This document shows positions 19,282-35,928 of a DNA stretch of 41,427 nt, one piece after another. Made by a program: the position numbers and the translations under genes. The notes under the pieces are model-generated. The model was not told the DNA's origin, made no database searches, and worked only from the letters and a program-made list of their open reading frames with translations. The stretch spans positions 1 through 41,427 of the forward strand of contig JALOPX010000020.1 in the NCBI GenBank assembly GCA_025453655.1. The letters run 5' to 3'. Positions within the stretch are counted from its first letter, which is position 1; every line of letters starts with the position of its first letter. This DNA is from Candidatus Krumholzibacteriia bacterium (GTDB taxonomy: Bacteria; Krumholzibacteriota; Krumholzibacteriia; Krumholzibacteriales; Krumholzibacteriaceae).

Positions 19282-20453
19282 CGCCGCGATTTCCCCCCGG
19301 GGCCGGCCGGCCCCCGGGACGCCCCGGCCGGGAGGCCGCCCGGAGCCTCATTAACTCCCGATCCGAACCGCCCCTCCCTGATCTGTTCCCTCAGCAGAAT
19401 CGCGAAACAGGCCCAGAAGAACGACGCCGCCGTGAAGACCATGACGATCTGTTTGCGCTTGGGCCACGCCCTTATCTCCGGCACGAACGGGGGATCTATC
19501 AGCCTTATCGTGCCGGTGCGCATCGAGGAGGCTATCGCGGCGTCGGCCATCTTCACCTGGACGAAGGCAAGGGCGAATTCCTGCATCATCCTTTCGCCGG
19601 CCAGCGCAAGGTACTCCAAGGCCAGGGCGGGCATCTCCTTCACCGGCGGGAAGATCGTTTCCATCCCTTCCCCGGCGATGAGCCCGTCCATCTTCTCGCG
19701 GATCTTCGAGAGCTCCAGGTCGAGCCTTTCGACCTGCAGATTCTCCTGCGTCATCGACATCTCGAGAAGTTCCTTCTCCATTTCGAGCATGCTCCGCCTC
19801 GCGCCCAGTTCCGATATCACGCTGAGGGCCGCGAGCGCCTGGCTCTGTATCTCGAACAGTCCGTGCCCGGCCATGAAGCGGCTTATCGCCGAATCGGCCA
19901 GGGCGATCTTCGCCTTCCTCGATTCCGCCTCTCTTTCAAGGAATAAATGCTTGTCGCTCATGTTCCGAACCGAAAGATCGGTCATCATGCTGTCTATGAA
20001 TTCGACGTAGGCGGCGACCATGTCCCTCGCCCTCACCGGATCCCTGTCCTCGACACCGACGACGATCACTCCTTCGTCCCTCACCACGACGCTCGTGCGC
20101 TCGCGCAGCTTGTCGCGCGCCTCGTCGAGGTTCGAGACCCCGTATTCCTCCTCCAGCCCGAACCGCTCCGCCATGAGGCCGGACATGTTGCGGCTCCTTA
20201 TGAGGTAATCGATGACGAGATTGTTCCTGACCCTTATAAGGCTCGAGTAGGTGTCGCCGAGCGAGCCGAGGCTGCTGAAGAAACCTCCGGATCCCGTCAG
20301 TTCCTTTTCGACTCCCGTGGGTATGAACGAGGCGGACGAGATGTACCTCGGCGGGATGACGAGGCTCGCGGCTGCCGAGAAGACGAAGCCCCCCGCCGTC
20401 ACGAGGATGACGGTTTTCCTGTGCCTGAGGAAGATGGAAAAGAATGAAAGCAT
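19278..20453 (-). CDS. Wzz-family chain-length determinant / polysaccharide co-polymerase
   Basis: The 391-residue product has the polysaccharide co-polymerase plan: an N-terminal helix (~13-33), a long periplasmic coiled-coil region, a Pro-rich patch 'DPPFVPEIRAWPKRK' and a C-terminal helix (~333-354). The periplasmic part begins with the Wzz-type strand 'PPRYISSASFIPTG'. No C-terminal tyrosine-kinase domain is attached, so it is the Wzz rather than the Wzc type. It should set chain length of a Wzy-dependent polymer, and its partner Wzy/WaaL-like gene is directly downstream with a four-base overlap. I chose the ATG at 20453 (MLSFFSIF) because an upstream extension in the frame crosses a predicted promoter and has no membrane-protein character. 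Confidence 0.9.
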   Translation of the reverse strand: MLSFFSIFLRHRKTVILVTAGGFVFSAAASLVIPPRYISSASFIPTGVEKELTGSGGFFSSLGSLGDTYSSLIRVRNNLVIDYLIRSRNMSGLMAERFGLEEEYGVSNLDEARDKLRERTSVVVRDEGVIVVGVEDRDPVRARDMVAAYVEFIDSMMTDLSVRNMSDKHLFLEREAESRKAKIALADSAISRFMAGHGLFEIQSQALAALSVISELGARRSMLEMEKELLEMSMTQENLQVERLDLELSKIREKMDGLIAGEGMETIFPPVKEMPALALEYLALAGERMMQEFALAFVQVKMADAAIASSMRTGTIRLIDPPFVPEIRAWPKRKQIVMVFTAASFFWACFAILLREQIREGRFGSGVNEAPGGLPAGASRGPAGPGGKSRR

Positions 20454-20496
20454 ATCTCCGCCCGGATGATGACTTCGAATCGAGCACGCAAGCCGC

Positions 20497-20510
20497 TCCC
20501 GTGCACGGGA
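20497..20510. promoter_or_regulatory. 14-bp perfect palindrome at the Wzz-operon promoter, candidate operator
   Basis: TCCCGTGCACGGGA reads the same on both strands. It lies just after the predicted -10 box (20515-20510) of the Wzz operon, so it would cover the transcript start. This is where a dimeric repressor would bind. The regulator is not known. Confidence 0.4.
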
Positions 20511-20539
20511 ATGTAACATCGCCCCGCTTCCGGCGGCAA
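20510..20539 (-). promoter_or_regulatory. Predicted promoter of the wzz-wzy operon
   Basis: On the minus strand TTGCCG (20539-20534) is followed after 18 bases by TACATT (20515-20510), each matching four of six sigma-70 positions. The leader to the ATG at 20453 would be ~50 bases. Confidence 0.4.
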
Positions 20540-20625
20540 GTTCAAACTGACCCATAAAAACCGGGAGCGGCCGCGGCGGGGAGGCGCGCGAATCCCGGGA
20601 CCGGTTCAGGGTCGCGCGGCGGAGC

Positions 20626-20654
20626 TTGCCCGCCGCCCGGGAATATGCTATAAT
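20626..20654 (+). promoter_or_regulatory. Predicted sigma-70 promoter of the M1 aminopeptidase gene
   Basis: TTGCCC (20626-20631), a 17-base spacer and a perfect TATAAT (20649-20654) form a strong housekeeping promoter. GCGGCG/CGCCGC inverted arms flank the -35 box. The leader to the ATG is ~32 bases and contains AAGGGG as ribosome-binding site. Confidence 0.65.
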
Positions 20655-20692
20655 TCATTGGAGCAACCTTGTATAAATAAAGGGGTTGTAAA

Positions 20693-22708
20693 ATGAAGAA
20701 AACGCTCTTCGCGGCTCTGACACTTCTTCTTTCATCCGGGGCGCTGAAAGCTCAGGATCCCTTCGACATCATACACGAGGACATCGTTCAGCGTATGGAT
20801 GCCATGCGGGCGGCCAGAAGCCTCGAAAGAAGGATGCTGCTGATGCCCGACGAGACTCCGTCACAGGCCGGTTACGATGTGATCCATTACGGCATCGATA
20901 TCGCGATTGACAGGACCGCTCAGCTCGTGGCCGGAAGGGTCTCGATCCTCCTGGAGAGCCTCGCGGATTCCCTGCATTCGATCGATATCGACGCCGACCC
21001 GGTCCTTTCGATCGAGTCGATATCGCTGGAAGGTGGGGCCGATCCGCTGTGGATCCATGAAAACGGCGTCGTCACGGTGGAACTCCGTTCCGCCCTCGCC
21101 GCCGGAGAGCGCGTAACCATTGAAATCGCGTACAGCGGCCATCCGTCTCTGTCGACCTACCCGGGGCTGTTTTTCAGGACATCCGGGACGAGCCCCGTCG
21201 TTTATTCGCTGAGCGAACCATGGAGCGCGAGGACGTGGTGGCCCTGCAAGGATTACCCGGACGACAAGGCGATCTTCGATATCCGCATCTCGGTGGAACA
21301 GGGCCTGACCGCCGCGTCTAACGGCTCCCTCGCCGGAGTCGGCGACACGACGTGCTGGGGGCTCCCCTACACCTGCCATTCGTGGCGCGAGAAATACCCG
21401 ATGCCGACCTATCTCTTCTCGGTCGCCGCGTCCGACTACGTGAGGCTCGACGACCATTTCGTGCACGCGCCCGGCGAAACGATGCTGATCACGAATTACG
21501 TCCTGCCGTCGAAGGTGGCGCAGGCCCTCGAGGATTTCAACATTCAGGTCCCCGCGCTCGAGTTCTTTTCGTCGACATTCGGGCTCTACCCGTTCGTCGA
21601 CGAAAAATACGGCGTGGCCCTCTGCGGCATCGGCGGCGGGATGGAGCATCAAACCCTGACCAGCTACGGCGCCGCTTTCGTCATGGGAACGCACCAGTAC
21701 GATTATCTCTGGATCCACGAGCTCTCCCACCAGTGGTTCGGCGACATGGTGACATGCAGCGACTGGACGCACATATGGCTCAACGAAGGCTGGGCGAGCT
21801 ACTGCGAGGCCCTGTGGTTCGAGCACGTCGGCGCGCCGGGGACCCTCAGGAGTTACATGGAAACGAGGGACACGCCGTGGTCATGGGACGGCCCGATCCT
21901 TCGCGACCCCTCGGTCGACGACCCGTGGTATTATTTCAACCGCGTCGTCTACCACAAGGGCGCCTGGGTCCTTCACATGCTGAGACGCGTGATGGGTGAC
22001 GCGCCATTTTTCGCCGCGGCGCGCGACTACCTCGAGGATCCGAGGTTCAGGTTCTCCTTCGCCGACACCGACGACATGAGGGGAATCTTCGAGGAGCATT
22101 ACGGGGCGCCGCTCGACTGGTTCTTCGACGAGTGGCTGACGAGAACGGACCGCCCCTCCTATTCGCTCGTATGGGACGGCTGCGCGGCCGGCGGCGCGGA
22201 ACACGCCGCCATCGCGGTCGAACAGCTCCAGGCGGTGCCTTACGCTATGCCGGTCGATTTCAGGATAACCACGCTGTCGGGAACGATCGACACGGTCCTG
22301 TGGATCGACGGGGCGTCGGAATCGTTCCACATCGCGGCCGGCTCGCCGGTGCTCGACGTCGAGATGGATCCCGATCACTGGGTGCTGCGCAACATATCGG
22401 AGACGGTTACCGGCTCCGTCCCGCCGGCGCCCATCGCGTGGCTCGAACAGAACGTGCCGAATCCCTTCAACCCGTCGACGAGGATACGATTCGGGATCGG
22501 CGCGGACGCGCATCTGAACATCTCGATATACGACGTCTCCGGGGCCCTCGTCGCGACGCTTGCCGACGGGGCGTATCCGGCCGGCCGCCATGAGATCGTC
22601 TGGGACGGCAGAACGGCGGCGGGAAGCCCCGCTTCCTCGGGGGTCTATTTCTGCCGCCTGAAAACGGGCCGCGTCTCGGTTGATCGAAAGCTCGTCCTGC
22701 TTCGCTGA
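20693..22708 (+). CDS. Secreted M1-family metallo-aminopeptidase with type IX-like sorting domain
   Basis: The 671-residue product begins with a signal peptide (MKKTLFAALTLLLSSGALKAQ). Residues ~60-250 are the M1 N-terminal beta domain. The catalytic domain has an exopeptidase motif GGMEH (~316-320, a variant of GAMEN) and the zinc site HELSH (H342, E343, H346) with E365 in 'LNEGWASY'. M1 enzymes release N-terminal residues from peptides. Instead of the helical C-terminal domain, the last ~85 residues are a FlgD-like/type IX domain: 'NVPNPFNPSTRIRFGI', 'ISIYDVSGALVATL', 'WDGR...SGVYFCRL', 'DRKLVLLR'. This predicts export to the cell surface or medium, probably for peptide scavenging. It is driven by its own strong promoter. 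Confidence 0.93.
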   Translation: MKKTLFAALTLLLSSGALKAQDPFDIIHEDIVQRMDAMRAARSLERRMLLMPDETPSQAGYDVIHYGIDIAIDRTAQLVAGRVSILLESLADSLHSIDIDADPVLSIESISLEGGADPLWIHENGVVTVELRSALAAGERVTIEIAYSGHPSLSTYPGLFFRTSGTSPVVYSLSEPWSARTWWPCKDYPDDKAIFDIRISVEQGLTAASNGSLAGVGDTTCWGLPYTCHSWREKYPMPTYLFSVAASDYVRLDDHFVHAPGETMLITNYVLPSKVAQALEDFNIQVPALEFFSSTFGLYPFVDEKYGVALCGIGGGMEHQTLTSYGAAFVMGTHQYDYLWIHELSHQWFGDMVTCSDWTHIWLNEGWASYCEALWFEHVGAPGTLRSYMETRDTPWSWDGPILRDPSVDDPWYYFNRVVYHKGAWVLHMLRRVMGDAPFFAAARDYLEDPRFRFSFADTDDMRGIFEEHYGAPLDWFFDEWLTRTDRPSYSLVWDGCAAGGAEHAAIAVEQLQAVPYAMPVDFRITTLSGTIDTVLWIDGASESFHIAAGSPVLDVEMDPDHWVLRNISETVTGSVPPAPIAWLEQNVPNPFNPSTRIRFGIGADAHLNISIYDVSGALVATLADGAYPAGRHEIVWDGRTAAGSPASSGVYFCRLKTGRVSVDRKLVLLR

Positions 22709-22720
22709 GAACGGCCGCCG

Positions 22721-22741
22721 CGGCAGGCGGCGCTCCTGCCG
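22721..22741. terminator. Hairpin between convergent genes, possible terminator
   Basis: CGGCAGG (22721-22727) pairs with CCTGCCG (22735-22741) around a seven-base loop, 13 bases after the aminopeptidase stop and before the hemW stop. There is no T-run, so intrinsic termination is uncertain. Confidence 0.35.
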
Positions 22742-22798
22742 AGTCGCTTCCCGCCTTCTGCATCATTCTTTGTTCGAGCCTTCGGCGGCATGGAGGGA

Positions 22799-23906
22799 TC
22801 ACAGGAAAAACAAGGGCAGGCTGTCGGCGAAAAGGAAACCTTTCGTCGTCGGAACGACTCTGTCTCCCTCGATCCTCAGGCACGACTCGTTCTCCAGCCG
22901 TTCCAGGGCCCTTTCCCAGGCCGGGAAACGGCTCAGGAATCCGAGAGGCAGCCCCCTCGCCGTCCTGAGGCCGAGATAAAGGGTCTCGAGATCGAACTGG
23001 CGCGCGGTGAGCCGCTCGCTCCCCCTGGGCGGCCCCTCTCCCCCCTCCACACCTCCGCAGTACCCTTCGATCGAGGGGAGATTCCACCACCTTTCGCCCC
23101 CGGCGAAGGAATGCGCGGAAGGCCCGAGCCCGAGATACGGAGCGTGCGCCCAGTACTTCCCGTTGTGCCGCGACGCCGCCCCTTCGCCGCGCGCGTAGTT
23201 GGAGATTTCATAATGAATGTACCCGTGATCGGTCAGCGCCGCCGAAGCGAGAAGGAACAACTCCCTCTGAAGTTCCTCCCCCGTCTCTTCGATGCGGCCC
23301 GCAGCGAGCATCCTCGCCATGGGGGTCGGGCCCTCGATCGTCATCTGGTAGCAGGAGACATGCTCCGGGCCGAGGGAGAGCGCCGTCTCCAGGGTCGATC
23401 TCCAGCTCTCGATCGTATGCCCGGCGAATCCATAGATCAGGTCGATGCCGAGGTTTTCCATCCCGGCCTCGCGGATCGCGCGGGCGGCGCCAATGGCGGA
23501 GCGGGCGTCGTGCCTCCGGCCGAGGAACTTCAGCTCGCCGTCGTCGAACGACTGAACCCCGACGCTTATCCGGTTTATCCCCGCGCCGCGGTATTCGGCG
23601 AGTTTGCCCGCCGTGACGTCGTCCGGATTGACCTCGATCGTCACCTCGGCGCCCGGGGCCGTTTCGAACCTGCCCCCGATGCGTTCCATCAGCAGCGCGA
23701 TCGATCCGGCCGGCATCGCCGACGGGGTGCCTCCGCCGATATAGACGGTGTCGAAGGCGGAGAATCCCATCCCCCGAGGGGCATTCTCCGCGGCGAGGCA
23801 GCCCAGAAGGCGGCCCGCCATGGAGATCCTGGTGTCCGAATAGAAATCGCAGTAGATGCACCGCGTGACGCAGAACGGGATATGCAGGTAGAGTCCCGGA
23901 GGATCG

Positions 23907-23917
<11 letters not shown>
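22799..23917 (-). CDS. hemW: Radical SAM heme chaperone HemW
   Basis: The 372-residue product is a HemN-like radical SAM protein of the HemW subgroup. The 4Fe-4S cluster motif is C16-x3-C20-x2-C23 in 'FCVTRCIYCDF', followed by 'VYIGGGTPSAM', 'VTIEVNPDD', 'GINRISVGVQSFDDGELKFLGRRH' and 'GIDLIYGFAGHT'. The HemW-specific heme-binding H-N-x-x-Y-W motif is present ('SRHNGKYWA'). HemW inserts heme into apoproteins rather than oxidising coproporphyrinogen, so older HemN-type names would be wrong. The start overlaps the lepA stop by 11 bases; lepA-hemW is a widespread gene pair. Heme delivery could serve respiratory proteins or the neighbouring heme-type regulator, but that link is speculative. Confidence 0.95.
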
Positions 23918-25703
<1,786 letters not shown>

Positions 25704-25757
25704 TTTCTTCTCCGTCGATCCGGTAAATTTCCCCTCACGGGGATCATGTCACCATGC

Positions 25758-25786
25758 AATTTAGCGATAAAACCTTCGGCTGTAAA
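25758..25786 (-). promoter_or_regulatory. Predicted lepA promoter
   Basis: On the minus strand TTTACA (25786-25781), a 17-base spacer and TAAATT (25763-25758) match five and four of six consensus positions. It lies downstream of the hcp terminator, so lepA is transcribed independently of hcp. Confidence 0.5.
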
Positions 25787-25821
25787 AGGATATCTGCACC
25801 GCGCCGGAATTTTCCCGCGGG

Positions 25822-25860
25822 TAAAAACAACCCGGCCCGGTTCGCATGCCCCGGGCCGGG
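25822..25860 (-). terminator. Rho-independent terminator of hcp
   Basis: A perfect 10-bp stem, CCCGGCCCGG (25831-25840) with CCGGGCCGGG (25851-25860), closes a ten-base loop. Read on the minus strand it is followed directly by TTGTTTTTA. It lies ~55 bases after the hcp stop codon and has all features of an intrinsic terminator. Confidence 0.9.
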
Positions 25861-25913
25861 CCTATACTTGAAGTTTCCGCCGCAGTATCTGCATGGCGGT
25901 TAGCGTATTACGT

Positions 25914-27554
25914 TCATCTGCCTTCCATCATCGCCGCTATGTCGCCGGCCACGTCCCCGATCGGCTTGATGTCGAAATTTTCGACGAGGACCCTGGCGAC
26001 CGCCGGCGAGAGGAACGCCGGGAGGGTCGGGCCCAGACGGATCCCCTTGAACCCGAGATAGAGCAGCGCGAGAAGAACCGCCACCGCCTTCTGCTCGTAC
26101 CAGGCTATGTCGAACGAGATAGGAAGCTTGTTCACGTCGTCGAGGCCGAAGGCTTCCTTGAGCTTCAGAGCGATGACCGCCAGGGAGTAGCTGTCGTTGC
26201 ACTGCCCGGCGTCGAGCACCCTCGGGATCCCCCCGATATCGCCCAGCTCGAGCTTGTTGTAGCGATACTTCGCGCACCCGGCGGTCAGGATGACGGTATC
26301 CTTCGGCAGCTCCTCGGCGACCTCGGTGAAGTAGGAGCGGCCTTTCTGGCGCCCGTCGCATCCGGCCATGACGACGAATCTTTTTATCGCCCCCGATTTG
26401 ACAGCGTCCACGACCTTGTCGGCAAGAGCCAGGACCTGGTCGTGCGCGAATCCGCCTGTTATCTTACCCTTCTCGATCTCGACCGGCGGCGAACACTTTT
26501 TCGCCAGCTCGATTATCGCGCTGAAATCCTTGTGCGAGCCTTTTTTGCGGTCGGGGATGTGTTTCACCCCTGGATAACCGGCCATTCCCGTCGTGAATAT
26601 CCTGTCTCGATAGGCGTCCTTCAGCGGGATGATGCAGTTCGTCGTCATCAGTATCGGGCCGTTGAACGAGGCGAATTCCTCCCCCTGTTTCCACCACGAC
26701 CCGCCGTAATTTCCGGCCAGATGCTTATACTTGCCGAAAAACGGATAATAATGGGCCGGGAGCATCTCGCCGTGCGTATAGACGTCGATCCCCTTCCCTT
26801 CGGTCTGGTCGAGAAGCTCCTCGAGGTCCTTCAGGTCGTGCCCCGAGACCAGGATTCCCGGGTTCCCCCTGACCCCGGTGTCGACCGTGGTGATCCGGGG
26901 TTTGCCGTACGCGGAGGTGTTGGCCTTGTCGAGAAGCGCCATCGTGTCGACCGCCGTCTTGCCGGCCTTCATCACCAGCGCGACCATCTCGTCGACCGGG
27001 AGCTCCTTCGTCATCGAGGCGAGCGCCTCGACGAGGAATTCGTATATCGCCGGCTCCTCGTGCCCCAGCACGGACGCGTGATGCGCGTATGCGGCGATGC
27101 CCTTGATGCCGAAGAGGAGAAGGCTCCTCAGGGATCGCTGGTCCTCGCCGCCGGTCGAAAGGATCGAGGCGTCGACGCTTTTCGATAGAGGATCAACGCC
27201 CGGCTTCGGGTCCCAGGATGCGCAGTCGGGGAGGGCCCCGCCGAACGAGGAGGCGTATTTCACGGCAAGGCGTCTCTTCAGATCGAGCCCCTTCCCGATC
27301 AATCCCTTTATCGCGTCGTCGTCGAAGTTGGCGTTCGTTATCGTCGCGAAAAGGGATTCGGCGATGAACCTTTCCTCTTCGATCAGGGGGTCGCCCTTTT
27401 TAAGGGCCTGCTCGCCGTAGACGCTTATCCCCTTGAGGACATAAATCAGGACATCCTGCAGCCCCGCCGTGCCTTCGGGCTTTCCGCAGACACCCCGCAC
27501 GGTGCATCCCGTGTTTTTCGCCGTCTCCTGGCACTGGAAGCAGAACATGCTCAT
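25914..27554 (-). CDS. hcp: Hybrid cluster protein (hydroxylamine reductase / NO reductase)
   Basis: The 546-residue product is a class I Hcp of the strict-anaerobe type. The N-terminal 4Fe cluster motif is C5-x2-C8-x8-C17-x5-C23 ('[22 protein letters not shown]'). The ligands of the Fe4-S2-O2 hybrid cluster are all recognisable: His in 'SGHDLKDL', Glu in 'THGEMLPAH', Cys in 'TTNCIIPL', Cys in 'MAGCDGRQ', Cys in '[10 protein letters not shown]', Cys in 'DAGQCNDSY' and Glu in 'IAWYEQKAV'. Hcp reduces hydroxylamine in vitro and is now viewed mainly as a low-level NO reductase protecting against nitrosative stress. The ATG at 27554 follows AGGGAG. A divergent Crp/Fnr gene and an operator lie upstream, and no hcr reductase gene is adjacent. 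Confidence 0.97.
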
Positions 27555-27613
27555 CTCTTTCTCCCTTCACAAGTTACACGAACACAATCCCGGTTCCGTC
27601 ATTCGATGTCGTG

Positions 27614-27619
27614 ATAATA
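27614..27619 (-). promoter_or_regulatory. -10 box of the hcp promoter
   Basis: TATTAT on the minus strand (27619-27614) lies 32 bases from the centre of the 27642-27655 palindrome. This puts the palindrome at about -41.5, the class II position for Crp/Fnr-type activators. No separate -35 box is evident, as expected for an activated promoter. Confidence 0.6.
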
Positions 27620-27641
27620 ATCCAATCCCTGAAGCTTTGCC

Positions 27642-27655
27642 TTGACCTGGGTCAA
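27642..27655. promoter_or_regulatory. HcpR-type operator between hcp and its regulator
   Basis: TTGACCTGGGTCAA is a TTGAC-N4-GTCAA palindrome, extended by a C/G pair on each side. It has the form reported for HcpR sites in anaerobes such as Desulfovibrio. It is positioned to activate hcp. The left half also resembles a -35 box for the divergent regulator gene, which would allow autoregulation. Confidence 0.75.
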
Positions 27656-27746
27656 GTATATGTAATTTATTTGTTCCTGTCTTTAAAGAAAATCGTTCGA
27701 GGCCGGGTCGGATTTTCAGGATGACCCAAATAGCGGCGGGAACCGG

Positions 27747-28400
27747 ATGGATGAGGCGATAAAAAACGCCGGGATATTCGCGGGGCTGGGCGAGGCCCTC
27801 GTCGGCAAGGTCGCGGCGGGCGGTTTCGAGAGGAAAATCCCCGCCGGCGGGATTATCTTCGTCGAGGAGGGTCCCGGAAAGGATTTCTTCATCCTTCTCG
27901 GCGGCATGGTCCGGCTGTCCAAATCGACCCAGGAGGGGCGCGAGGTCACGATAAGGGTGATATCGCCCGGCGAAACCTTTGCGGAGACGGTCCTTTTCGA
28001 AAGCGGCCGATATCCGGTGACGGCGACCGCCATGGAGGACTCGACCCTGTTCGTGATAACGCGGAGCACCTTCCTGAGCCTCCTCGGCGAGGACGATTTC
28101 CGCGACGGTTTCATCGCCATGCTTATGAAAAAACAGAGGTATCTCGCCGACCGCATCCTCTACCTTACCTCCTTCGACGTCGAGGAGAGATTCTTCCGCT
28201 TCCTGATCGAAAATTACGGGCGGCGCGAGATCTACAACGTCGATCTTTCCAAGAAGGACATCGCCTCGACGATCGGGGCGGCGCCGGAAACCTTTTCAAG
28301 GCTGATAAAGCGGCTCAAGGCCAGGAGAATTCTCGACTGGGAGGAAGGCTTGATCCGGCTCCCCTCCCGCTTCTGGGATGAATCGGACTATTCGGATTGA
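27747..28400 (+). CDS. hcpR: Crp/Fnr-family regulator, HcpR-like
   Basis: The 217-residue product has an N-terminal cyclic-nucleotide-type beta-roll ('IPAGGIIFVEEGPGKDFFILLGGMVRL', 'EVTIRVISPGETFAETVLF'), a dimerisation helix (~115-145) and a C-terminal winged helix-turn-helix ('LSKKDIASTIGAAPETFSRLIKRLKARRIL'). The protein contains no cysteine at all, so it cannot carry an FNR-type Fe-S cluster; HcpR proteins are reported to sense NO or nitrite through heme. It is divergent from hcp with a matching palindrome between, which supports the name. The ATG at 27747 has only a weak upstream site (GGCGGGAACC), consistent with low expression. The ligand is inferred, not seen. Confidence 0.85.
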   Translation: MDEAIKNAGIFAGLGEALVGKVAAGGFERKIPAGGIIFVEEGPGKDFFILLGGMVRLSKSTQEGREVTIRVISPGETFAETVLFESGRYPVTATAMEDSTLFVITRSTFLSLLGEDDFRDGFIAMLMKKQRYLADRILYLTSFDVEERFFRFLIENYGRREIYNVDLSKKDIASTIGAAPETFSRLIKRLKARRILDWEEGLIRLPSRFWDESDYSD

Positions 28401-28465
28401 AACATCCCCCCTTCGTTTTCCGTATTCAACACATCGCTATCGTTCGGAGCGTCACCGGGTTCAGG

Positions 28466-28488
28466 CGGGGCCGAAGCACCGGGCCCCG
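28466..28488. terminator. Hairpin after hcpR, possible terminator
   Basis: CGGGGCC (28466-28472) pairs with GGCCCCG (28482-28488) around nine bases, followed by TT and a C-run rather than a U-tract. It sits in the 163-base gap before the aminotransferase gene. Confidence 0.3.
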
Positions 28489-28563
28489 TTCCCCCCGCAG
28501 GCGCTTTACTCTTGTAAGTGGCCCCCGCTTCTGCGAAAATCGCCGAAGCGCAGGAGGGACGAG

Positions 28564-29706
28564 TTGGCCGGAAAGATTAACTGGGACGGCTTCAGGACGG
28601 AATTCCCCGCCACAAAGGAACTTCTTTATCTCAACAGCGCGGCGATCAGCCCGATGTCCACGCGCGTCAGGGCGGCGATCGACGAGGTGAACGATCTCTT
28701 CGTTCGAAAGGGGATCCTGGCCGAGGAAGAGGTGTGCGCGAGAGTCGCGGCGATCAGGGAATCGGCGGCGAGGCTTATCGGCGCGTACCCCGGAGAGATC
28801 GCCTTCACGAGAAACACCACGCACGGGGTGCTTCTCGCCGCGAACGGCATCCGGTGGAAAGCGGGGGACAACGTCGTGATGCCGTCGATCGAGTTTCCCG
28901 CCAACGTCTATCCCTGGATGGGATTGTTCGAAAAAGGCGTCGAGCTGAGGATGGTCGAGCCCGACGACGGGGTCGTCACGGCGGAGATGCTGATCGACGT
29001 CTGCGACAGGAAAACACGCGCGGTCACGGCCAGCCTCGTTCAGTTCTCGACGGGGCACCGCATCGACTGCGAGGAGCTCGGAAGATACTGCCGCAACAGG
29101 GGGATATTTCTCAATATAGACGCGATTCAGGCGCTCGGGGCCCTGAAGATCGACGTGAAACGCTGCGGCATCGACTTCCTTTCCTGCGGGGGCCACAAAT
29201 TCATGCTGGCCACCCCCGGGATCGGCATATTTTACTGCCGCGCGGAGCTGATCGACACGATCGACGTGGCCTACCCGGGCTGGACCGGCGTCGTCAACAG
29301 CCGCGATTTCCTCAATTACGATCTCACCTGGCGGGGCGACGCGGCGAGGTTCGAGGAGGGCTCCTCCAACTTCCAGGGCATCTACGGTCTCGGGGCGTCC
29401 ATCGACAGGTTTCTCGAAATCGGGCCTGAAATCACGGAGGAGAGGATCCTTTTCCTGACCGGGCTGCTGGCGGAGGGTCTCGAAAAGCGCGGATACACAG
29501 TCACCAGCCCGTTCGGGGAAGGCGAGCGTTCGGGAATAATCTGTTTCACGCACCCGCGGATGAAGAGCGCGGACATACACGGAAGGCTCGCGGCGCGGTC
29601 GGTCGCCTGCAGCCTCAGGGAGGGCGCGGTCCGGCTCAGCCCGCACATCTACAACGTCGAGGAGGATATCGAAAGATTCTTCGAGAAACTGGAGGCAGGC
29701 TCATGA
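28564..29706 (+). CDS. Class-V aminotransferase fold PLP enzyme (cysteine desulfurase/epimerase-like)
   Basis: The 380-residue product is a fold-type I PLP enzyme of the aminotransferase class V group. It shows 'ELLYLNSAAISPMSTRV', 'IAFTRNTTHGVLLAANGI', the cofactor Asp-x-x-Gln in 'LNIDAIQALGAL' (D186, Q189) and the Schiff-base Lys in 'SCGGHKFMLATPGIGIFY' (K212). The C-terminal 'VACSLREGAVRLSPHIYNVEEDIE' is typical of the CsdA/isopenicillin-N-epimerase-like subgroup; the Cys there could be catalytic, but desulfurase activity cannot be assumed. The start is TTG at 28564 behind a strong AGGAGGG; no ATG start is well placed. Its stop overlaps the next gene's ATG (ATGA), tying it to two membrane proteins. 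Confidence 0.88.
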   Translation: MAGKINWDGFRTEFPATKELLYLNSAAISPMSTRVRAAIDEVNDLFVRKGILAEEEVCARVAAIRESAARLIGAYPGEIAFTRNTTHGVLLAANGIRWKAGDNVVMPSIEFPANVYPWMGLFEKGVELRMVEPDDGVVTAEMLIDVCDRKTRAVTASLVQFSTGHRIDCEELGRYCRNRGIFLNIDAIQALGALKIDVKRCGIDFLSCGGHKFMLATPGIGIFYCRAELIDTIDVAYPGWTGVVNSRDFLNYDLTWRGDAARFEEGSSNFQGIYGLGASIDRFLEIGPEITEERILFLTGLLAEGLEKRGYTVTSPFGEGERSGIICFTHPRMKSADIHGRLAARSVACSLREGAVRLSPHIYNVEEDIERFFEKLEAGS

Positions 29707-30206
29707 GGAAAAAGAACGGGAAACCTTCGATCGTGCCGGGATTGATACTCATCTTCATCGGCATCGTCGCGGTTCTGAACAATTTCGAGGCGATAAACCT
29801 GGACTGGGAGGTCCTGTGGACCTATTTCATCCTGCTGCTGGGGCTGATATTCTGGCTCGGGTTCATCTTCGACCGCACCAAGGACGGGCTTATAATGCCG
29901 GGAACGATCCTTCTCACATACGGGATCATCCTGAACCTCCACATGCGATTCGGCAACATCGACATCCTGTGGCCCTTTTTCATCCTTGGACCGGCGTTCG
30001 GTTTCTACGCGATGTATCTGCTCGGCAAGCGGGACAGGGGCCTTCTCATCCCGGCCGTCATATTGACGATCATCGGCTCGATCTTCCTTCTGCAGAGCTA
30101 CAGCTACATCAGGTACGTATGGCCACTCGTGCTGGTGGTTCTCGGCGTTCTTCTTCTGCTGAGGAACAACCGTGACGGCGGCGGGGACCAGGGGAAACAG
30201 GAATGA
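29703..30206 (+). CDS. Small polytopic membrane protein, LiaI/LiaF-like N-terminal domain
   Basis: The 167-residue product has about five or six hydrophobic helices in repeated '+-x-G-hydrophobic' blocks: 'GLILIFIGIVAVLNNF', 'YFILLLGLIFWLGFIF', 'PGTILLTYGIILNL', 'ILWPFFILGPAFGFYAMY', 'VILTIIGSIFLLQSY' and 'WPLVLVVLGVLLLL'. This pattern is shared by DUF5668 and LiaI-LiaF-type transmembrane domains of envelope-stress systems. It is a predicted inner-membrane protein ending in a charged tail. Its start overlaps the aminotransferase stop, and a related protein follows 19 bases later, so the two probably act together. Actual function unknown. Confidence 0.75.
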   Translation: MRKKNGKPSIVPGLILIFIGIVAVLNNFEAINLDWEVLWTYFILLLGLIFWLGFIFDRTKDGLIMPGTILLTYGIILNLHMRFGNIDILWPFFILGPAFGFYAMYLLGKRDRGLLIPAVILTIIGSIFLLQSYSYIRYVWPLVLVVLGVLLLLRNNRDGGGDQGKQE

Positions 30207-30225
30207 CCGAAGACTGGAGGAGCTC

Positions 30226-30813
30226 ATGGGAAGACATTGGAAAGACAACAAGTTCGCGATAGTGCTTATCGCCGCGGGATTACTGTTCCTGCTGCATAAT
30301 TTCTTCTTTTTCAGCGTCTGGGAAACGCTTCTGAAGCTGACCCCCCTCCTGCTCGTCTGGTGGGGATTCCGCCTCCTGAGGAGGAGCGGCAGGCATTCCG
30401 GGAAGGATCCCGATTTCCAGGTCTTCACCGACACGACCATGACGACCTCCTCGGAGTTCCTCAAGCATTCGAGCGCGTTCGGGGACATCAGCATCAAGGT
30501 GGACGGCGAGGAATTCTCCGGCGGGAGCGTTTCGAGCGTCTTCGGCAGGATCTCGATAGACCTGCGGGAAGTCAGGAGGATCGGCAGCTACGGGCAGCTC
30601 GACCTTCATTCCGTCTTCGGCGACATCAAGATCTACCTGCCCGAATGCGTCTCGTACGACGTGAGCGGCAGCAACCTCTTCGGCACGATCATCAACCACG
30701 AGGGCGGGAAGATAGAGGGATGCAATTATTGCGGCCCCGGCACCGAAGGCGGCGGACAGAAACTCGTCATAAGGCCGTCCCTCGTATTCGGCGACATGGA
30801 GATCATGAAATAA
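30226..30813 (+). CDS. LiaF-like membrane protein with C-terminal beta-helix domain
   Basis: The 195-residue product has two short membrane helices (~9-50: 'FAIVLIAAGLLFLLHNFFFF', 'LKLTPLLLVWWGFRLL'). A beta-rich domain follows with repeated 'S.FG.I.I.L' units: 'HSSAFGDISIKV', 'SSVFGRISIDL', 'HSVFGDIKIYLPE', 'SNLFGTIINH' and 'SLVFGDMEIMK'. This repeated turn is typical of the LiaF C-terminal/DUF2154 beta-roll that monitors or responds to cell-envelope damage in Firmicutes; homologues in other phyla are uncharacterised. The ATG at 30226 has GGAGGAG upstream, better than the earlier in-frame ATG at 30172. No sensor kinase or regulator gene is adjacent, so a Lia-type circuit cannot be claimed. 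Confidence 0.8.
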   Translation: MGRHWKDNKFAIVLIAAGLLFLLHNFFFFSVWETLLKLTPLLLVWWGFRLLRRSGRHSGKDPDFQVFTDTTMTTSSEFLKHSSAFGDISIKVDGEEFSGGSVSSVFGRISIDLREVRRIGSYGQLDLHSVFGDIKIYLPECVSYDVSGSNLFGTIINHEGGKIEGCNYCGPGTEGGGQKLVIRPSLVFGDMEIMK

Positions 30814-30819
30814 ACCGGG

Positions 30820-30831
30820 GGTGATTTCACC
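30820..30831. other. Small hairpin at convergent stop codons
   Basis: GGTGA (30820-30824) and TCACC (30827-30831) pair around TT in the 13-base gap between convergent genes, and include the M28 peptidase stop codon. It is too small to call a terminator with confidence. Confidence 0.25.
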
Positions 30832-33004
30832 GGACGATTACAAGTTTCCGCGCCAGCGTCGCGCCGCCCGCCTTCAGCCTGAGGAAGTAGATCCCGCTCG
30901 CCGCTTTCGCGCCGGAGTCGTTTCTTCCGTCCCATAAGTAGACGTAACGATCCGGCTCCACGAACTCGTCGATCAGCCTCGCCACCTCCCTGCCCGCCAC
31001 ATCGTAGACGGAAAGCCCGACCCTCATCCGTTCCGGGATCTCGAATCTGATCTGTGTCGACGAGAAGAATGGATTGGGAAAATTCTGATGCAGAACGACC
31101 CGCGAGATCGGGCCCGCCCCGTAGCCGGCGATCGCCGCCACCGCGCCGAGCGCCGTCCTCGCGACGTCCCGCACGTACGCCATGTCGATGAATTCGAAGA
31201 GGTCGGTGCAGTTGTGGTAATGGGGATTGTCCCTGAAGCCGCTCTCTATGAGCAGCACGGCGGGCGCGTCGACGAATCCCTTGAAGGCGAGGTTGTCGCT
31301 CATCGGCTGGTCCGATTCGCTCCTGTAGAGCCAGTCGAGGGGATATTCGATGGCGTAAGCCTCCGACGAATCGAGAAGGAGCCGCGCGAGGATCGTGTCG
31401 ATCGTGCCGTCGACCGCCGCGAGGGAGATATCCCCGGTGCCCCCGTAATCGGCGCCCACCATGTCGAGGTTGATGATCCCCTCGTACACGATTCCCGTGT
31501 CGACGCCGGCGGCGAAATTCGAGCTCCCCACCAGGCCCAGCTCCTCGGCGTCGAAAAGGACGAATTCCACCGTCTTCTCGAGCGCGGAGCCGGCGAGCAC
31601 CCTGGCGCATTCGAGGACGCAGGCGGTCCCGCTGGCGTTATCGTCAGCGCCGGAAGCGCAAAGGAGCGGATCGCCTGCCCTGTTCATCGAATCGTAATGC
31701 CCGCAGAGAATCACCCTCCGGCCCGGATCCTTCCATCCTTCACGCCTGAAAACGACGTTCGCGCCCCACGTCGTATCGGAAATTTCGTACAGGCCGCACG
31801 CCGGATCCCCGGTCCTCCAACCCGGATCGACGGTGGAGATCTCGTTCCTCCCCGCCGTCCAGACCCGCTCGTCGCCGCCGGCGGCGAACCGCCAGATATC
31901 CTTTTCCCCCGAACAGCCCTCCGCAGCCTCCCGCCACGTGACACCGCCGTCCTCGCTCATCCAGAGCGATCCCCCGCCGCCGGCCGCGAGCGCCGTCAGC
32001 GAATCGACCATGCGTACGCATCTGAGGTCGGTCGCCATGGCCGTCTGCGCCCAGGTCCCTCCGCCGTCGGCGGTGCTGAAAACGACGCGGTCGCCCGCAA
32101 TGACCCCCCTGCCCGACGGATGGAAATCGATATCGGCCAGCCTGGAGGTCGTAAGACGCCTGCCGGACCACGTGTAACCGCGATTGACGCTTTCGAAAAG
32201 GTACCCCCCGTCGGTCACCACCCAGAAATGGACGGGACCGGTCGCCGCGGACCCGTTTATATTACGGTACGAAAACTGCGAGGGGGCGGCGTCGACCCAC
32301 CAGCTCAGTCCGCCGTCCGCCGTATTGAGGAACGATCCGTAATCGCCGGCGGCGAAACCGAACCTGTCGTCGAAGAAGGTGATCGTGTTCAGCGAATATA
32401 TCCCCACCTGGCTCCCGTCCTTGTCGACATTCCACGAGAGCCCGCCGTCGATCGACGAAAGAATCCTGCCGTACCCGCTTCCCTTCGCCTTGCAGGCGGC
32501 CATGAGCTTCCCGTTCAATCCCATGTAAAGCTCGTTGACCCTGCCGTCGATCGTGGCGACGAGATCAAAACCGCCCCACCCTCCCGAGGCGGTCGACAGG
32601 AATATCTTCCCCTCGATGGAGCCGACCCATACAGAGTCGTTTCCCTGCGAAAGGGCGACCCCCATCAGCTCGGGCGAAGCGACCGAGACCGCGAACCTTT
32701 GCACCTCGGGGGAGTAGCCGTACGCCGAGGCCCTGTCGACGAGGTACTGCATGGCCAGCCATTTCTGCGGAGAGAAGGTATACCTTGTGTTGATCAGCTC
32801 CATTGTGCCGCCGACAAGAACGGAATCCTCCCCGCTGAGATCCCTTATCGTCCTCGCGATCGAGGCCTGATCGATTCGGCCGACGAGATCGCAGATCGTG
32901 CAGGGCTGGGCGCGGGTTCCGGCGGGCGCCATGAGTGCGGCGGCCGCCAGGGCCGGCAGGGCGAAGCGCGCGGCGGCGCCGATGTGCGGTTTGAAAAGCT
33001 TCAA
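30827..33004 (-). CDS. Secreted M28 metallopeptidase with inserted propeller-like domain and sorting domain
   Basis: The 725-residue product starts at TTG (33004) and has a signal sequence (ARFALPALAAAALMAPAGTRAQ). Residues ~30-105 resemble the N-terminal helices of M28 peptidases. Residues ~110-405 are BNR/YCF48-like repeats ('SSIDGGLSWNVDKDG', 'NTADGGLSWWVDAAP', 'SVNRGYTWSGRR', 'STADGGGTWAQTA', 'SEDGGVTWREA'). The zinc-peptidase core follows: H436 and D438 in 'CGHYDS', D455 in 'GADDNASG', E487/E488 in 'FDAEELGLVGS', D514 in 'NLDMVG', and a late 'YHNCTDLFEFID'. The last ~90 residues are a type IX-like domain ('NFPNPFFSSTQIRFEI', 'SVYDVAGREVARL', 'SGIYFLRL'). It is probably a surface or extracellular aminopeptidase. 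A good promoter at 33039-33067 supports the start. Confidence 0.92.
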   Translation of the reverse strand: MKLFKPHIGAAARFALPALAAAALMAPAGTRAQPCTICDLVGRIDQASIARTIRDLSGEDSVLVGGTMELINTRYTFSPQKWLAMQYLVDRASAYGYSPEVQRFAVSVASPELMGVALSQGNDSVWVGSIEGKIFLSTASGGWGGFDLVATIDGRVNELYMGLNGKLMAACKAKGSGYGRILSSIDGGLSWNVDKDGSQVGIYSLNTITFFDDRFGFAAGDYGSFLNTADGGLSWWVDAAPSQFSYRNINGSAATGPVHFWVVTDGGYLFESVNRGYTWSGRRLTTSRLADIDFHPSGRGVIAGDRVVFSTADGGGTWAQTAMATDLRCVRMVDSLTALAAGGGGSLWMSEDGGVTWREAAEGCSGEKDIWRFAAGGDERVWTAGRNEISTVDPGWRTGDPACGLYEISDTTWGANVVFRREGWKDPGRRVILCGHYDSMNRAGDPLLCASGADDNASGTACVLECARVLAGSALEKTVEFVLFDAEELGLVGSSNFAAGVDTGIVYEGIINLDMVGADYGGTGDISLAAVDGTIDTILARLLLDSSEAYAIEYPLDWLYRSESDQPMSDNLAFKGFVDAPAVLLIESGFRDNPHYHNCTDLFEFIDMAYVRDVARTALGAVAAIAGYGAGPISRVVLHQNFPNPFFSSTQIRFEIPERMRVGLSVYDVAGREVARLIDEFVEPDRYVYLWDGRNDSGAKAASGIYFLRLKAGGATLARKLVIVR

Positions 33005-33038
33005 AATAAAAACCTTTCGCAAACGCCAGTCCGGGTTT

Positions 33039-33067
33039 AATATACAATTCCGGGTTTCGGTTTGCAA
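33039..33067 (-). promoter_or_regulatory. Predicted promoter of the M28 peptidase gene
   Basis: On the minus strand TTGCAA (33067-33062), a 17-base spacer and TATATT (33044-33039) match four and five of six consensus positions. The short leader (~28 bases) rules out starts further upstream and favours the TTG at 33004. Confidence 0.6.
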
Positions 33068-33146
33068 CTTCGGGGAATCCCGGGGCAATGATCCCGCACA
33101 TGGACCGCTCGGGGGCATAATATCTGTATAAGGAGGCGTTGCTGCC

Positions 33147-34565
33147 TTGTCCGGATTCAGTGGAGATTTCGGCGTGCCTGAGGAGGATTTTCGCAGGGTC
33201 ATCTCGGCCGCCCTGTCGCGGGGGGCTTCCTGGGGGGAGCTTTATTTCGAGCATTCCGTCGACAACCGGATAACGATGGAGGAGGGGATAGTCAAGGAGG
33301 GGATCAAATCGATCTCGATGGGAGTCGGGATCCGGGCCGTGAAGGGAGAGGGGACCGGGTACGCCTACACCGAGGACCTGTCGATCGGGAAGATGATGCA
33401 GGCGGCCCGCACGGCGGCGGCCATCGCCGATTCGGGGCCGGGCAGCGGCCCGGCCGCGATAAGGGAATCGCGCTGCGAGGACCACTACCCGGTGACATCG
33501 GCGACGACCGAAGAACCGCTCGGCAACAAGGTCGCCTGGATCGGGGAGGCCGGCGAGGCGGCCCGCCTTTCGGACCCCGCCATAACGAAGGTCACCGTCA
33601 CGCTCGCCGATTCGATACGCGACATACAGATAGTCACCTCGGACGGCAGGCTGCTCAGGGACAGGCGGCCGATGACGAGTTTTTCGGTTTCCGTGGTCGC
33701 CGAAAGGAACGGCAACCGCCAGATAGGAGTGTCGAGCGGCGGCGGCAGGATGGGGCCGGAATATTTCACCGAGATAAAAACCCCGCGGCGCCACGGCATG
33801 GAGGCGGCGCGCCAGGCCCTGCTTCTGCTCGAAGCGATCGACGCCCCGGCCGGCCCGATGGAGCTTATTCTCGCGCCGGCGGAATCGGGGATACTTCTCC
33901 ATGAATCGGTCGGCCACCCGCTCGAGGCCGATTTCATAAGAAAGAAAACCTCCGCGTACACCGACCGCCTCGGCGACCTTGTGGCGAGCGAACTGGTGAC
34001 GGTGATAGACGACGGCACGGTAAGGTTCGACCGCGGAGCGATCAATTTCGACGACGAGGGGACGATATCGTCCTCGAACGTCCTGATAGAGAAGGGCGTT
34101 CTCAAGGCGTACATGCACGACAGGATAAGCGCCGACTTTTTCGGCGTCCCCCCGACGGGGAACGGCCGCAGGGAATCCTACAAGCATCCTCCCCTTCCGA
34201 GAATGACCGTCACCTATCTCGCCAACGGGGATTCGGACCCGGAGGAGATATTGAAATCCACGAAAAAAGGTATCTACTGCAAATCGTTCAGGGGCGGGCA
34301 GGTCGACATATCGAACGGAGATTTCGTCTTCGTCCCGATCGAGGCGTACATGGTCGAAAACGGGAGGATAACCGCACCCGTCAAGAACCTGTCCCTGATC
34401 GGCAACGGCCCCGACGTGCTCTCCAGGGTGACGGCGGTGGGCAACGACTTCACGTTCAGCGACGGGCGGTGGACGTGCGGGAAGGGCCAGCAGGTCCCGG
34501 TGGGAGTCGGCCTCCCGACGATCAGGATCTCGGAGATCACGGTGGGCGGGAGCGAGATGCGATGA
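33147..34565 (+). CDS. tldD: Metalloprotease TldD, catalytic subunit
   Basis: The 472-residue product is the zinc subunit of the TldD/TldE (PmbA) protease. The catalytic H252-E253-x3-H257 motif is in 'GILLHESVGHPLEADF', and the C-terminal Cys of the family is likely the one in 'WTCGKGQ'. In Escherichia coli the heterodimer digests unfolded peptides and matures microcin B17; elsewhere it trims RiPPs and toxin-antitoxin proteins. No precursor peptide is obvious nearby, so general peptide turnover is the safest role. The start is TTG at 33147 after AAGGAGG. The partner gene follows 19 bases downstream. Confidence 0.96.
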   Translation: MSGFSGDFGVPEEDFRRVISAALSRGASWGELYFEHSVDNRITMEEGIVKEGIKSISMGVGIRAVKGEGTGYAYTEDLSIGKMMQAARTAAAIADSGPGSGPAAIRESRCEDHYPVTSATTEEPLGNKVAWIGEAGEAARLSDPAITKVTVTLADSIRDIQIVTSDGRLLRDRRPMTSFSVSVVAERNGNRQIGVSSGGGRMGPEYFTEIKTPRRHGMEAARQALLLLEAIDAPAGPMELILAPAESGILLHESVGHPLEADFIRKKTSAYTDRLGDLVASELVTVIDDGTVRFDRGAINFDDEGTISSSNVLIEKGVLKAYMHDRISADFFGVPPTGNGRRESYKHPPLPRMTVTYLANGDSDPEEILKSTKKGIYCKSFRGGQVDISNGDFVFVPIEAYMVENGRITAPVKNLSLIGNGPDVLSRVTAVGNDFTFSDGRWTCGKGQQVPVGVGLPTIRISEITVGGSEMR

Positions 34566-34584
34566 ATAGCGGAGGGTTCGAAGG

Positions 34585-35928
34585 ATGACCGGCGATCAGA
34601 TGAAGGAAACGGCCGCGAGGATAGTGGAAACGGCTCTCTCGGAGGGGGCCGGCACTGCCGAGGTCGACGTCGCGGAGAACAACCGTTTCGGCGTGACGGT
34701 CCGCAACGGAAACATCGAGAACCTCATCGAATCGGGATCGAGCAGGATAGGGATATCGGTTTCGGTGGACGGCCGGAAATCCTCGGCGACGTCGAGCGAC
34801 CTTTCCGAAGAAAGCATAAAGCGGATGATACGCGAGGCCGTGGAGCTTGCCGCCTTCATGGACCGCGACGAATATTTCGGGCTCCCCGACCCGGAGGAGC
34901 TCGGTTCCGCCGGTATCGACCTCGGCATACATGACGAGGAGACCTGCTCCGCCACGGCCGACCGGAAGATAGGGCTCGCCATGGAGCTCGAAAAGATGGC
35001 GTGCGCCCTCGACGGAAGGATCATTTCCGACGGGGCTTCCCTTTCGAGCGGAAGCTACTCCTCCGCCTTCGCCAATTCGATCGGTTTCTGCGACTGGTAT
35101 TCGCAGACCTGGAATTCGCTCGAGATATCCTGCGCTGCGGCGGACAGGCCCGCCCGCGGACCGAACACCGGGAAGAAACAATCCTCGTACTGGTTTTCGA
35201 CGTCGTGCCGTTTCTCCGGCCTCGAACCCATCGAATCGATAGCCTCGAAGGCGGTCGAAAGGACGATAGGGAAGCTCGGAGCGGTCAAGCCGAAGACGTG
35301 CGAGGTCCCGGTGATCTTCGACGAGACGGCCGCGAGGCGGTTCTTCGGCTCGATATCATCGGCGGTCAACGGGGGGAACATTTACAGGAGAGCCTCGTTT
35401 CTCGCCGACAGGCTCGGCGAGAAAATCAGCTCGCCCCTCGTCACCCTGGTCGACGACCCCCTGATTCAGGGCGCGCCCGGCAGCAGGCCTTTCGACGCGG
35501 AGGGCGTAAGAACGAGGAAGACGACCGTCGTCGAGAACGGGATCCTGAAAACCTGGCTTCTCGACAGCTACCAGGCGAGAAAGCTCTCGATGCGCACCAC
35601 GGGGAGCGCGGGCGGCATATCCAATTTTTACATGAAACCCGGGGATTCGTCCCTCGAGGAAATGATAGCCGGCGTCGACGAGGGTCTCCTCCTCACGGAG
35701 CTTTCCGGCCCCGGAGCGAACTGGTCGAACGGGGATTTCTCCCAGGGAGGCCAGGGCATCTGGATATCGGGGGGAAAATTGGCATACCCGGTGAACGAGT
35801 TCACGATCGCCGGCTCCTTCCTGCAGATGCTGTCGGGGATATCGGCCGTCGCCGACCGGTTCGAATGGAAGGGCCCTCTCTCCTCCCCGGCATTCAGGAT
35901 AGACCGCATGACGATCAGCGGAACCTGA
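34585..35928 (+). CDS. pmbA: TldE/PmbA, non-catalytic partner of TldD
   Basis: The 447-residue product is a full-length PmbA/TldE. It shares the TldD fold ('VTVRNGNIENLIESGSSRIGISVSVDGR', 'VIFDETAARRFFGSISSAVNGGNIYRR', 'PLVTLVDDPLIQGAPGSRPFDAEGVRTRKTTVVENGILKTWLLD', cited by their key G, D and R residues) but lacks HExxxH, as expected for this subunit. In the known complex it completes the chamber that admits extended peptides to the TldD zinc site. Here it is 19 bases downstream of tldD, with a GGAGGGTTCGAAGG site before its ATG. Both are probably transcribed together from the region upstream of tldD. Confidence 0.95.
   Translation: MTGDQMKETAARIVETALSEGAGTAEVDVAENNRFGVTVRNGNIENLIESGSSRIGISVSVDGRKSSATSSDLSEESIKRMIREAVELAAFMDRDEYFGLPDPEELGSAGIDLGIHDEETCSATADRKIGLAMELEKMACALDGRIISDGASLSSGSYSSAFANSIGFCDWYSQTWNSLEISCAAADRPARGPNTGKKQSSYWFSTSCRFSGLEPIESIASKAVERTIGKLGAVKPKTCEVPVIFDETAARRFFGSISSAVNGGNIYRRASFLADRLGEKISSPLVTLVDDPLIQGAPGSRPFDAEGVRTRKTTVVENGILKTWLLDSYQARKLSMRTTGSAGGISNFYMKPGDSSLEEMIAGVDEGLLLTELSGPGANWSNGDFSQGGQGIWISGGKLAYPVNEFTIAGSFLQMLSGISAVADRFEWKGPLSSPAFRIDRMTISGT

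Follow-up and report, generated by a model that had tools for sequence, protein, structure and literature searches.

A predicted HcpR-type class II promoter upstream of hcp in a candidate phylum

The divergent hcp and regulator genes and the region between them

The window, that is the whole stretch of 41,427 nucleotides analysed here, carries hcp and, divergent from it, the gene of a Crp/Fnr-family regulator, an arrangement already claimed in a preliminary description of this DNA and recovered at the positions given in Table 1. As judged from its sequence, the hcp product is a typical hydroxylamine reductase/hybrid cluster protein, with N-terminal cysteines at Cys5, Cys8, Cys17 and Cys23. The two genes are separated by an intergenic region of 192 bp with a G+C content of 45.8%, vs. 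61.9% for the window.

Table 1. Features of the hcp–regulator region, in window coordinates
Feature	Position	Strand	Basis or reading
Palindrome CTTGACC-TG-GGTCAAG, 16 bp including the outer C-G pair	27641..27656	.	predicted operator for the HcpR-like Crp/Fnr protein encoded divergently
14-bp palindrome core TTGACCTGGGTCAA	27642-27655		within the 16-bp palindrome
GGC directly after the 14-bp core, hcp side	27639..27641	minus	occupies the place of the -35 element; role inferred
Predicted hcp -10 element TATTAT	27614..27619	minus	centre lies 32 bp from that of the palindrome
Predicted hcp transcription start (A)	27607	minus	inferred from the -10 position; 53-nt leader
AAGGGAG, RBS-like sequence of hcp	27561..27567	minus	sequence
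hcp, hybrid cluster protein/hydroxylamine reductase, 546 aa	25914..27554	minus	Pfam PF03063 E=3.5e-169; NCBIfam NF003658 814.5 bits
Crp/Fnr-family regulator, 217 aa, HcpR1-like	27747..28400	plus	cNMP_binding PF00027 E=5.3e-21; HTH_Crp_2 PF13545 E=2.4e-9

No inverted repeat longer than the 16-bp palindrome was found in the intergenic region, and exact TTGACNNNNGTCAA occurs at this sole place in the window, where the loose motif (2 mismatches allowed) is not enriched (5 places vs. 8.6 expected). Both the palindrome and its 32-base distance to TATTAT on the hcp strand, as put forward in the preliminary description, were located exactly; the distance is centre-to-centre, so the palindrome would be centred at -41.5 if TATTAT is the -10 element. 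Provided that this predicted -10 is correct, the GGC next to the core would fall at -34 to -32 of the hcp promoter.

Elsewhere in the window, an M1 (20693-22708) and an M28 (30827-33202) peptidase-like protein both display FlgD_ig/Por_Secre_tail-like C-termini, the latter below the Pfam cut-off, hinting at a possible common export tag.

Conservation of the palindrome and of its spacing to the predicted hcp -10 element

Out of the 20 genomes searched in the GTDB family of the window, an orthologue of the regulator is encoded in 10 (E of 2.5e-43 or lower), and in all ten hcp is present and preceded by TTGACYnnRGTCAA, hcp being divergent from the regulator in all 9 complete loci and the two genes lying on separate contigs in G022. 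The search for the same palindrome upstream of hcp in related genomes, proposed as a check in the preliminary description, was therefore positive, and this conservation in 10/10 regulator-bearing genomes supports reading the palindrome as HcpR-type. In a quick tree, the hcp genes of these ten genomes group into a single clade (SH-aLRT 95), which fits a joint inheritance of hcp with the regulator.

At the scale of the phylum, the tally of hcp loci amounts to 18, i.e. the 10 with an orthologous regulator, 6 without (G005, G012, G029, G033, G034, G064), G040 and G041, to which are added three regulator-less hcp loci with starts read separately (G016, G027, G028); G030 and G032, where hcp is broken into fragments, were left out. 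Before the 9 start-readable hcp genes of the genomes without an orthologue, namely these six and these three, the palindrome is missing. Also devoid of an orthologous regulator, G040 carries the one-base variant TTGATCCAGGTCAA and G041 carries TTGACCTGGGTCAA before hcp, and each has a distant regulator with a PE..R helix adjoining a frdX-like gene on another contig. From this pattern of presence and absence across the phylum, the site tracks the PE..R-helix regulator, not hcp.

The 41-kb window contains seven inverted repeats with a gap of 2 and arms no shorter than 7, so palindromicity alone is no proof of function and the site could in principle be a functionless chance palindrome. It is the conservation among relatives that places it above chance: the palindrome is kept in 10/10 of them with a fixed geometry in near-random intergenic surroundings, pairwise identity among six family loci (one per genus) reaching 0.93 over the 14-bp site and 1.00 over the GGC, when the 40 bases upstream show 0.27 and the spacer 0.31. 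A chance origin can consequently be given next to no credit.

Beyond the phylum, 297 genomes of Desulfobacterota were sampled out of this larger group, which is the phylum of L003 (titled Thermodesulfobacteriota), and 166 of them match at E <= 1e-18; out of 30 loci retrieved, 8 are considered close (E below 1e-50). All 8 closest regulators are divergent from their neighbour, which is a frdX-like ferredoxin gene in 5 cases and hcp in 3, the frdX label relying here on ferredoxin domains and context, without comparison to a named FrdX, and TTGACnnnnGTCAA lies between the regulator and its target in 8/8 cases. As for the 22 remaining loci, TTGAYnnnnRTCAA is present somewhere in 12; one of the 22 has hcp and two have a ferredoxin match. 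Loci from shared genomes (L001/L010, L002/L129, L003/L130) were counted once.

Regarding the spacing, TATAAT matches were scored at every distance from the palindrome centre and compared with 5000 letter shuffles, in the 10 rows of the family, the 8 rows of close Desulfobacterota and five more distant loci, the latter chosen for the presence of the palindrome together with hcp or frdX and excluding L151 and L154. In all three groups the -10 score is highest at exactly 32 bp, and the observed best was reached by 0/5000 shuffles in each of them, or by 16/5000 when the Desulfobacterota are thinned to five rows. Hexamers with at least 4/6 matches at 31 or 32 bp are found in 10/10 family, 4/8 Desulfobacterota and 5/5 distant rows; L131, L132, L135 and L136 have no such hexamer at 31-32 bp, L131 showing none near 32 bp, and the better -10-like hexamer of G017 and G018, GATAAT, is 25 bp from the palindrome centre. 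The GGC follows the core in 10/10 family rows, 1/8 Desulfobacterota rows and 4/5 further rows. The class II spacing (-41.5) asserted in the preliminary description is thereby supported in relatives, and the 32-bp peak supports a predicted class II activation from -41.5.

The opposite regulatory sign has also to be weighed, the regulator repressing hcp and leaving the site upon stress, in the manner of the model for Desulfovibrio desulfuricans, in which a repressing HcpR2 acts at hcp with damaged Fe-S clusters as the trigger (PMC5701242, in excerpt). In line with it, a weak sigma-70-like pair, AAGACA-17-TATACT (27683-27655, hcp strand), abuts the palindrome and TATACT is found again in G017 and G018, but it occurs in just 3/10 family rows (L008, L010, L012). 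Moreover, the constant distance of 32 bp to the -10 is the one expected for class II activation, GGC occupies the -35 position and the regulator is devoid of Cys for a Fe-S cluster, which altogether make repression improbable and leave activation as the preferred reading.

On the other strand, it had been claimed that the left half-site doubles as the -35 element of the regulator gene, which could not be established. For the ten family rows, the best -10 score on the regulator strand peaks at 24 bp and is reached by 2264/5000 shuffles, and for the six one-per-genus rows at 20 bp (3500/5000), that is at the level of shuffled sequences; a sigma-70 scan found no pair at the left half-site on this strand, and this candidate was rejected. 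The peak lies at 43 bp for the eight Desulfobacterota rows (13/5000, or 1181/5000 when thinned to five), at 17 bp for the five more distant rows (123/5000) and, weakly, at 20 bp for 16 pooled rows (220/5000). As distances of 18-20 bp fit spacers of 16-18 (20 bp corresponding to an 18-bp spacer), the pooled peak is a weak hint and not a support; in the window, the position for an 18-bp spacer on the regulator strand offers only TTTATT (4/6). No promoter could be assigned to the regulator gene. Since the site is also upstream of this gene, autoregulation is possible.

Relatives, DNA specificity and sensor chemistry of the regulator

The regulator is the only match to HTH_Crp_2 above the curated cut-off in its genome, two more being below it. 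Its fold was predicted by AlphaFold with a pLDDT of 88.0 and a pTM of 0.64, and the best 50 of 1948 Foldseek matches are all of the CRP type, with a whole-chain TM of about 0.4-0.6. In the recognition helix GAAPETFSR, the residues P180, E181, T182, S184 and R185 are invariant in 18/18 aligned regulators, the helix of L018 not being readable; positions 180, 181 and 185 are given in what we take to be E. coli CRP numbering, after alignment of the helix to the CRP sequence. Ser or Pro at position 180 correlates with TTGACnnnnGTCAA, and Arg at this position with TGTGA sites (PMC1274295, in excerpt), a correlation matched by the invariant P180, E181 and R185. G005, a genome of the same class but of another family, encodes a distant regulator (E=1.4e-13) with R180-E181 directly upstream of hcp (L052/L025), and the interval between them contains GTGACATCGGTCAC (GTGAC-N4-GTCAC) followed by GGC and by TATCCT at 32 bp. 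With Pro180/TTGAC in one family and Arg180/GTGAC in another, in the same class and at the same spacing, nature offers here a test of the specificity rule.

Among known systems, the HcpR1 branch of delta-proteobacteria and cyanobacteria shares with the present locus a Crp/Fnr protein without the FNR Cys motif and a co-located hcp, and its site wyTTGACnnnnGTCAArw, Ser/Pro at position 180 and targets, hcp and the ferredoxin gene frdX, resemble those of the window circuit (PMC1274295, in excerpt). Unlike this branch, the locus belongs to another phylum, and in the window's genome the perfect site was found only before hcp, and the frdX-like gene shows none within the 200 bases preceding its chosen start. 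The P. gingivalis HcpR, of the HcpR2 branch, likewise has a Crp fold and activates hcp (PMC12750200, in excerpt; PDB 9day), but it reaches only 59.2 bits with the family profile and its Met68 corresponds to Lys59 of the window regulator; besides, the HcpR2 motif GTAACnnnnGTTAC was found in none of the scanned regulator loci. The circuit is most likely HcpR1-like.

One may still ask whether the site belongs to a DNR/FNR-type regulator of oxygen response or denitrification instead of a dedicated HcpR. Against solved structures, the family profile ranks DNR of Pseudomonas (PDB 3dkw) as the top transcription regulator with 105.0 bits, barely over 3h3z (103.8), ahead of M. tuberculosis CRP (98) and well over P. 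gingivalis HcpR (59.2), and the PETFSR helix is common to DNR and to the window regulator; the very top row of the profile is a multi-domain protein of Toxoplasma, and with a single-sequence query several cAMP-type regulators rank ahead of DNR. However, DNR differs by its site TTGATnnnnATCAA and its denitrification targets (PMC1274295, in excerpt), the sites of DNR and FNR being TTGAT-N4-ATCAA (PMC1274295, in excerpt) when all ten family sites have TTGAC/GTCAA, the neighbours are hcp or frdX-like genes, no denitrification gene was recognised by eye among the ORFs at 20000-35000, and the FNR cysteines are absent. A DNR/FNR-type regulator is accordingly judged highly improbable and a dedicated HcpR-type regulator is retained.

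As for the relatives, the nearest named one of the regulator is L001, from 'Candidatus Krumholzibacteriia bacterium' RS_13_38. In the protein tree, in which L002 stands for L129, a group of 19 (97/79, slightly short of the support that earns a star) gathers the 8 Desulfobacterota regulators, nine family members, L018 and L004, with mixed phyla and no named HcpR1 included, which suggests a possible transfer of the regulator between phyla; the inner forks are often weak, and the starred branches are compatible with a single origin per phylum. The regulator of L004 is 43% identical with identical helix residues, and its locus contains no such palindrome, no hcp and no frdX-like gene. On plasmids, 9 records show 27-32% identity to the regulator. 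With the window regulator as query in the phylum of the Flavobacterium locus, where 19/80 genomes have hcp, the 1.5 kb on either side yielded no Crp protein in the 15 loci considered. Of these loci (L159-L173), 13/15 have a frdX-like ferredoxin match upstream of hcp, at a distance of ~1 to 1.5 kb.

Concerning the sensor, the absence of cysteines had been put forward in the preliminary description as a sign of a heme-type HcpR rather than FNR. The window regulator indeed contains 0 Cys, which excludes an FNR cluster, and also 0 His; the heme-type part of the claim is not established, given the lack of His and the replacement of Met68 by Lys59. The absence of Cys is not diagnostic of a heme type, because the eight other complete family orthologues have 1-3 Cys in their longest frames. 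Among the 18 aligned regulators, there is no His or Cys column common to most of them and no Cys column in 11 or more, and Met127 (15/18) and Lys59 (17/18) are conserved alongside other Lys and Tyr. It is this conserved Lys59 that aligns with the heme ligand Met68 of P. gingivalis, according to a hand alignment of the flap with the printed primer sequence (PMC12750200, in excerpt), and a constant offset (chain = query + 23) agrees with this pairing provided that a 14-residue tag is present in the 9day chain. D. desulfuricans has a heme-binding HcpR and a second one for which Fe-S clusters are modelled (PMC5701242, in excerpt), and as this pair differs, the cofactor cannot be read from the HcpR name. 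The window regulator stands out as a His-free and Cys-free member. In a speculative and rather doubtful scenario, the regulator lineage and its operator would have been exchanged between Krumholzibacteriota and Desulfobacterota, with NO sensed by the protein that is His-free and Cys-free in the window's genome, via Lys/Met heme ligation or without heme.

Proposed circuit and its extent in the genome

The HcpR circuit was proposed in 2004-2005, with FrdX and Hcp as the main targets of HcpR (PMC545781, PMC1274295, both in excerpt). For the window, the reading we favour, with a probability of about 0.85, is a local HcpR-type circuit in which a regulator-bound palindrome would mediate class II activation of hcp upon NO stress. 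A dimer of the divergent Crp/Fnr protein would bind TTGACC-TG-GGTCAA; nitrosative stress, probably NO, would activate the regulator, which may then contact RNA polymerase from -41.5 in a class II manner and switch on hcp. The downstream half-site and the GGC would stand in for a proper -35 element, so that hcp would depend on its activator. Comparison lends good support to the predicted HcpR-type class II promoter of hcp in a candidate phylum, and also to the extension of the HcpR–hcp circuit to such a phylum, as the preliminary description had it, this phylum being most likely Krumholzibacteriota. Among the open-access papers listed, no report of an HcpR–hcp circuit was found for Krumholzibacteri*; a putative dedicated hcp switch, with predicted operator and start site, is thereby placed in a phylum for which no report was found.

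With respect to the possible regulon, the 2.55-Mb genome of the window (~90% complete) has a single TTGACYNNRGTCAAG place, and the other three places of TTGAYNNNNRTCAA (C58, C140, C147) fall inside reading frames. When up to 3 mismatches are allowed, 59 forward and 57 reverse places are obtained, the reversed control yielding 24 and 25 (116 vs. 49); among the matches listed, the zero-mismatch site is found solely before hcp, and the two-mismatch places on C26, C99 and C140 sit within reading frames. No site was found in the 200 bases scanned before the chosen start of the frdX-like gene on C117, and the regulon may be one promoter. Close to this frdX-like gene, at ~2.5 kb, is the single Rrf2-family match of the genome (G000:C117:25571-28668).

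Across the family, TTGACYNNRGTCAAG is found at 20 strand-places in 11/20 genomes, vs. 7 for the reversed pattern, and G014 has one such match yet neither an orthologous regulator nor hcp. In G020 (L078, G020:C10, site at position 1502 of the locus), a second site, TTGACCCCGGTCAA/TTGACCCCGGTCAAGGC, precedes the gene of an outer-membrane efflux protein (PF02321), and the same second TTGACCCCGGTCAAGGC site is found beside similar genes in G022 (L089, G022:C231), where the contig stops before the next gene.
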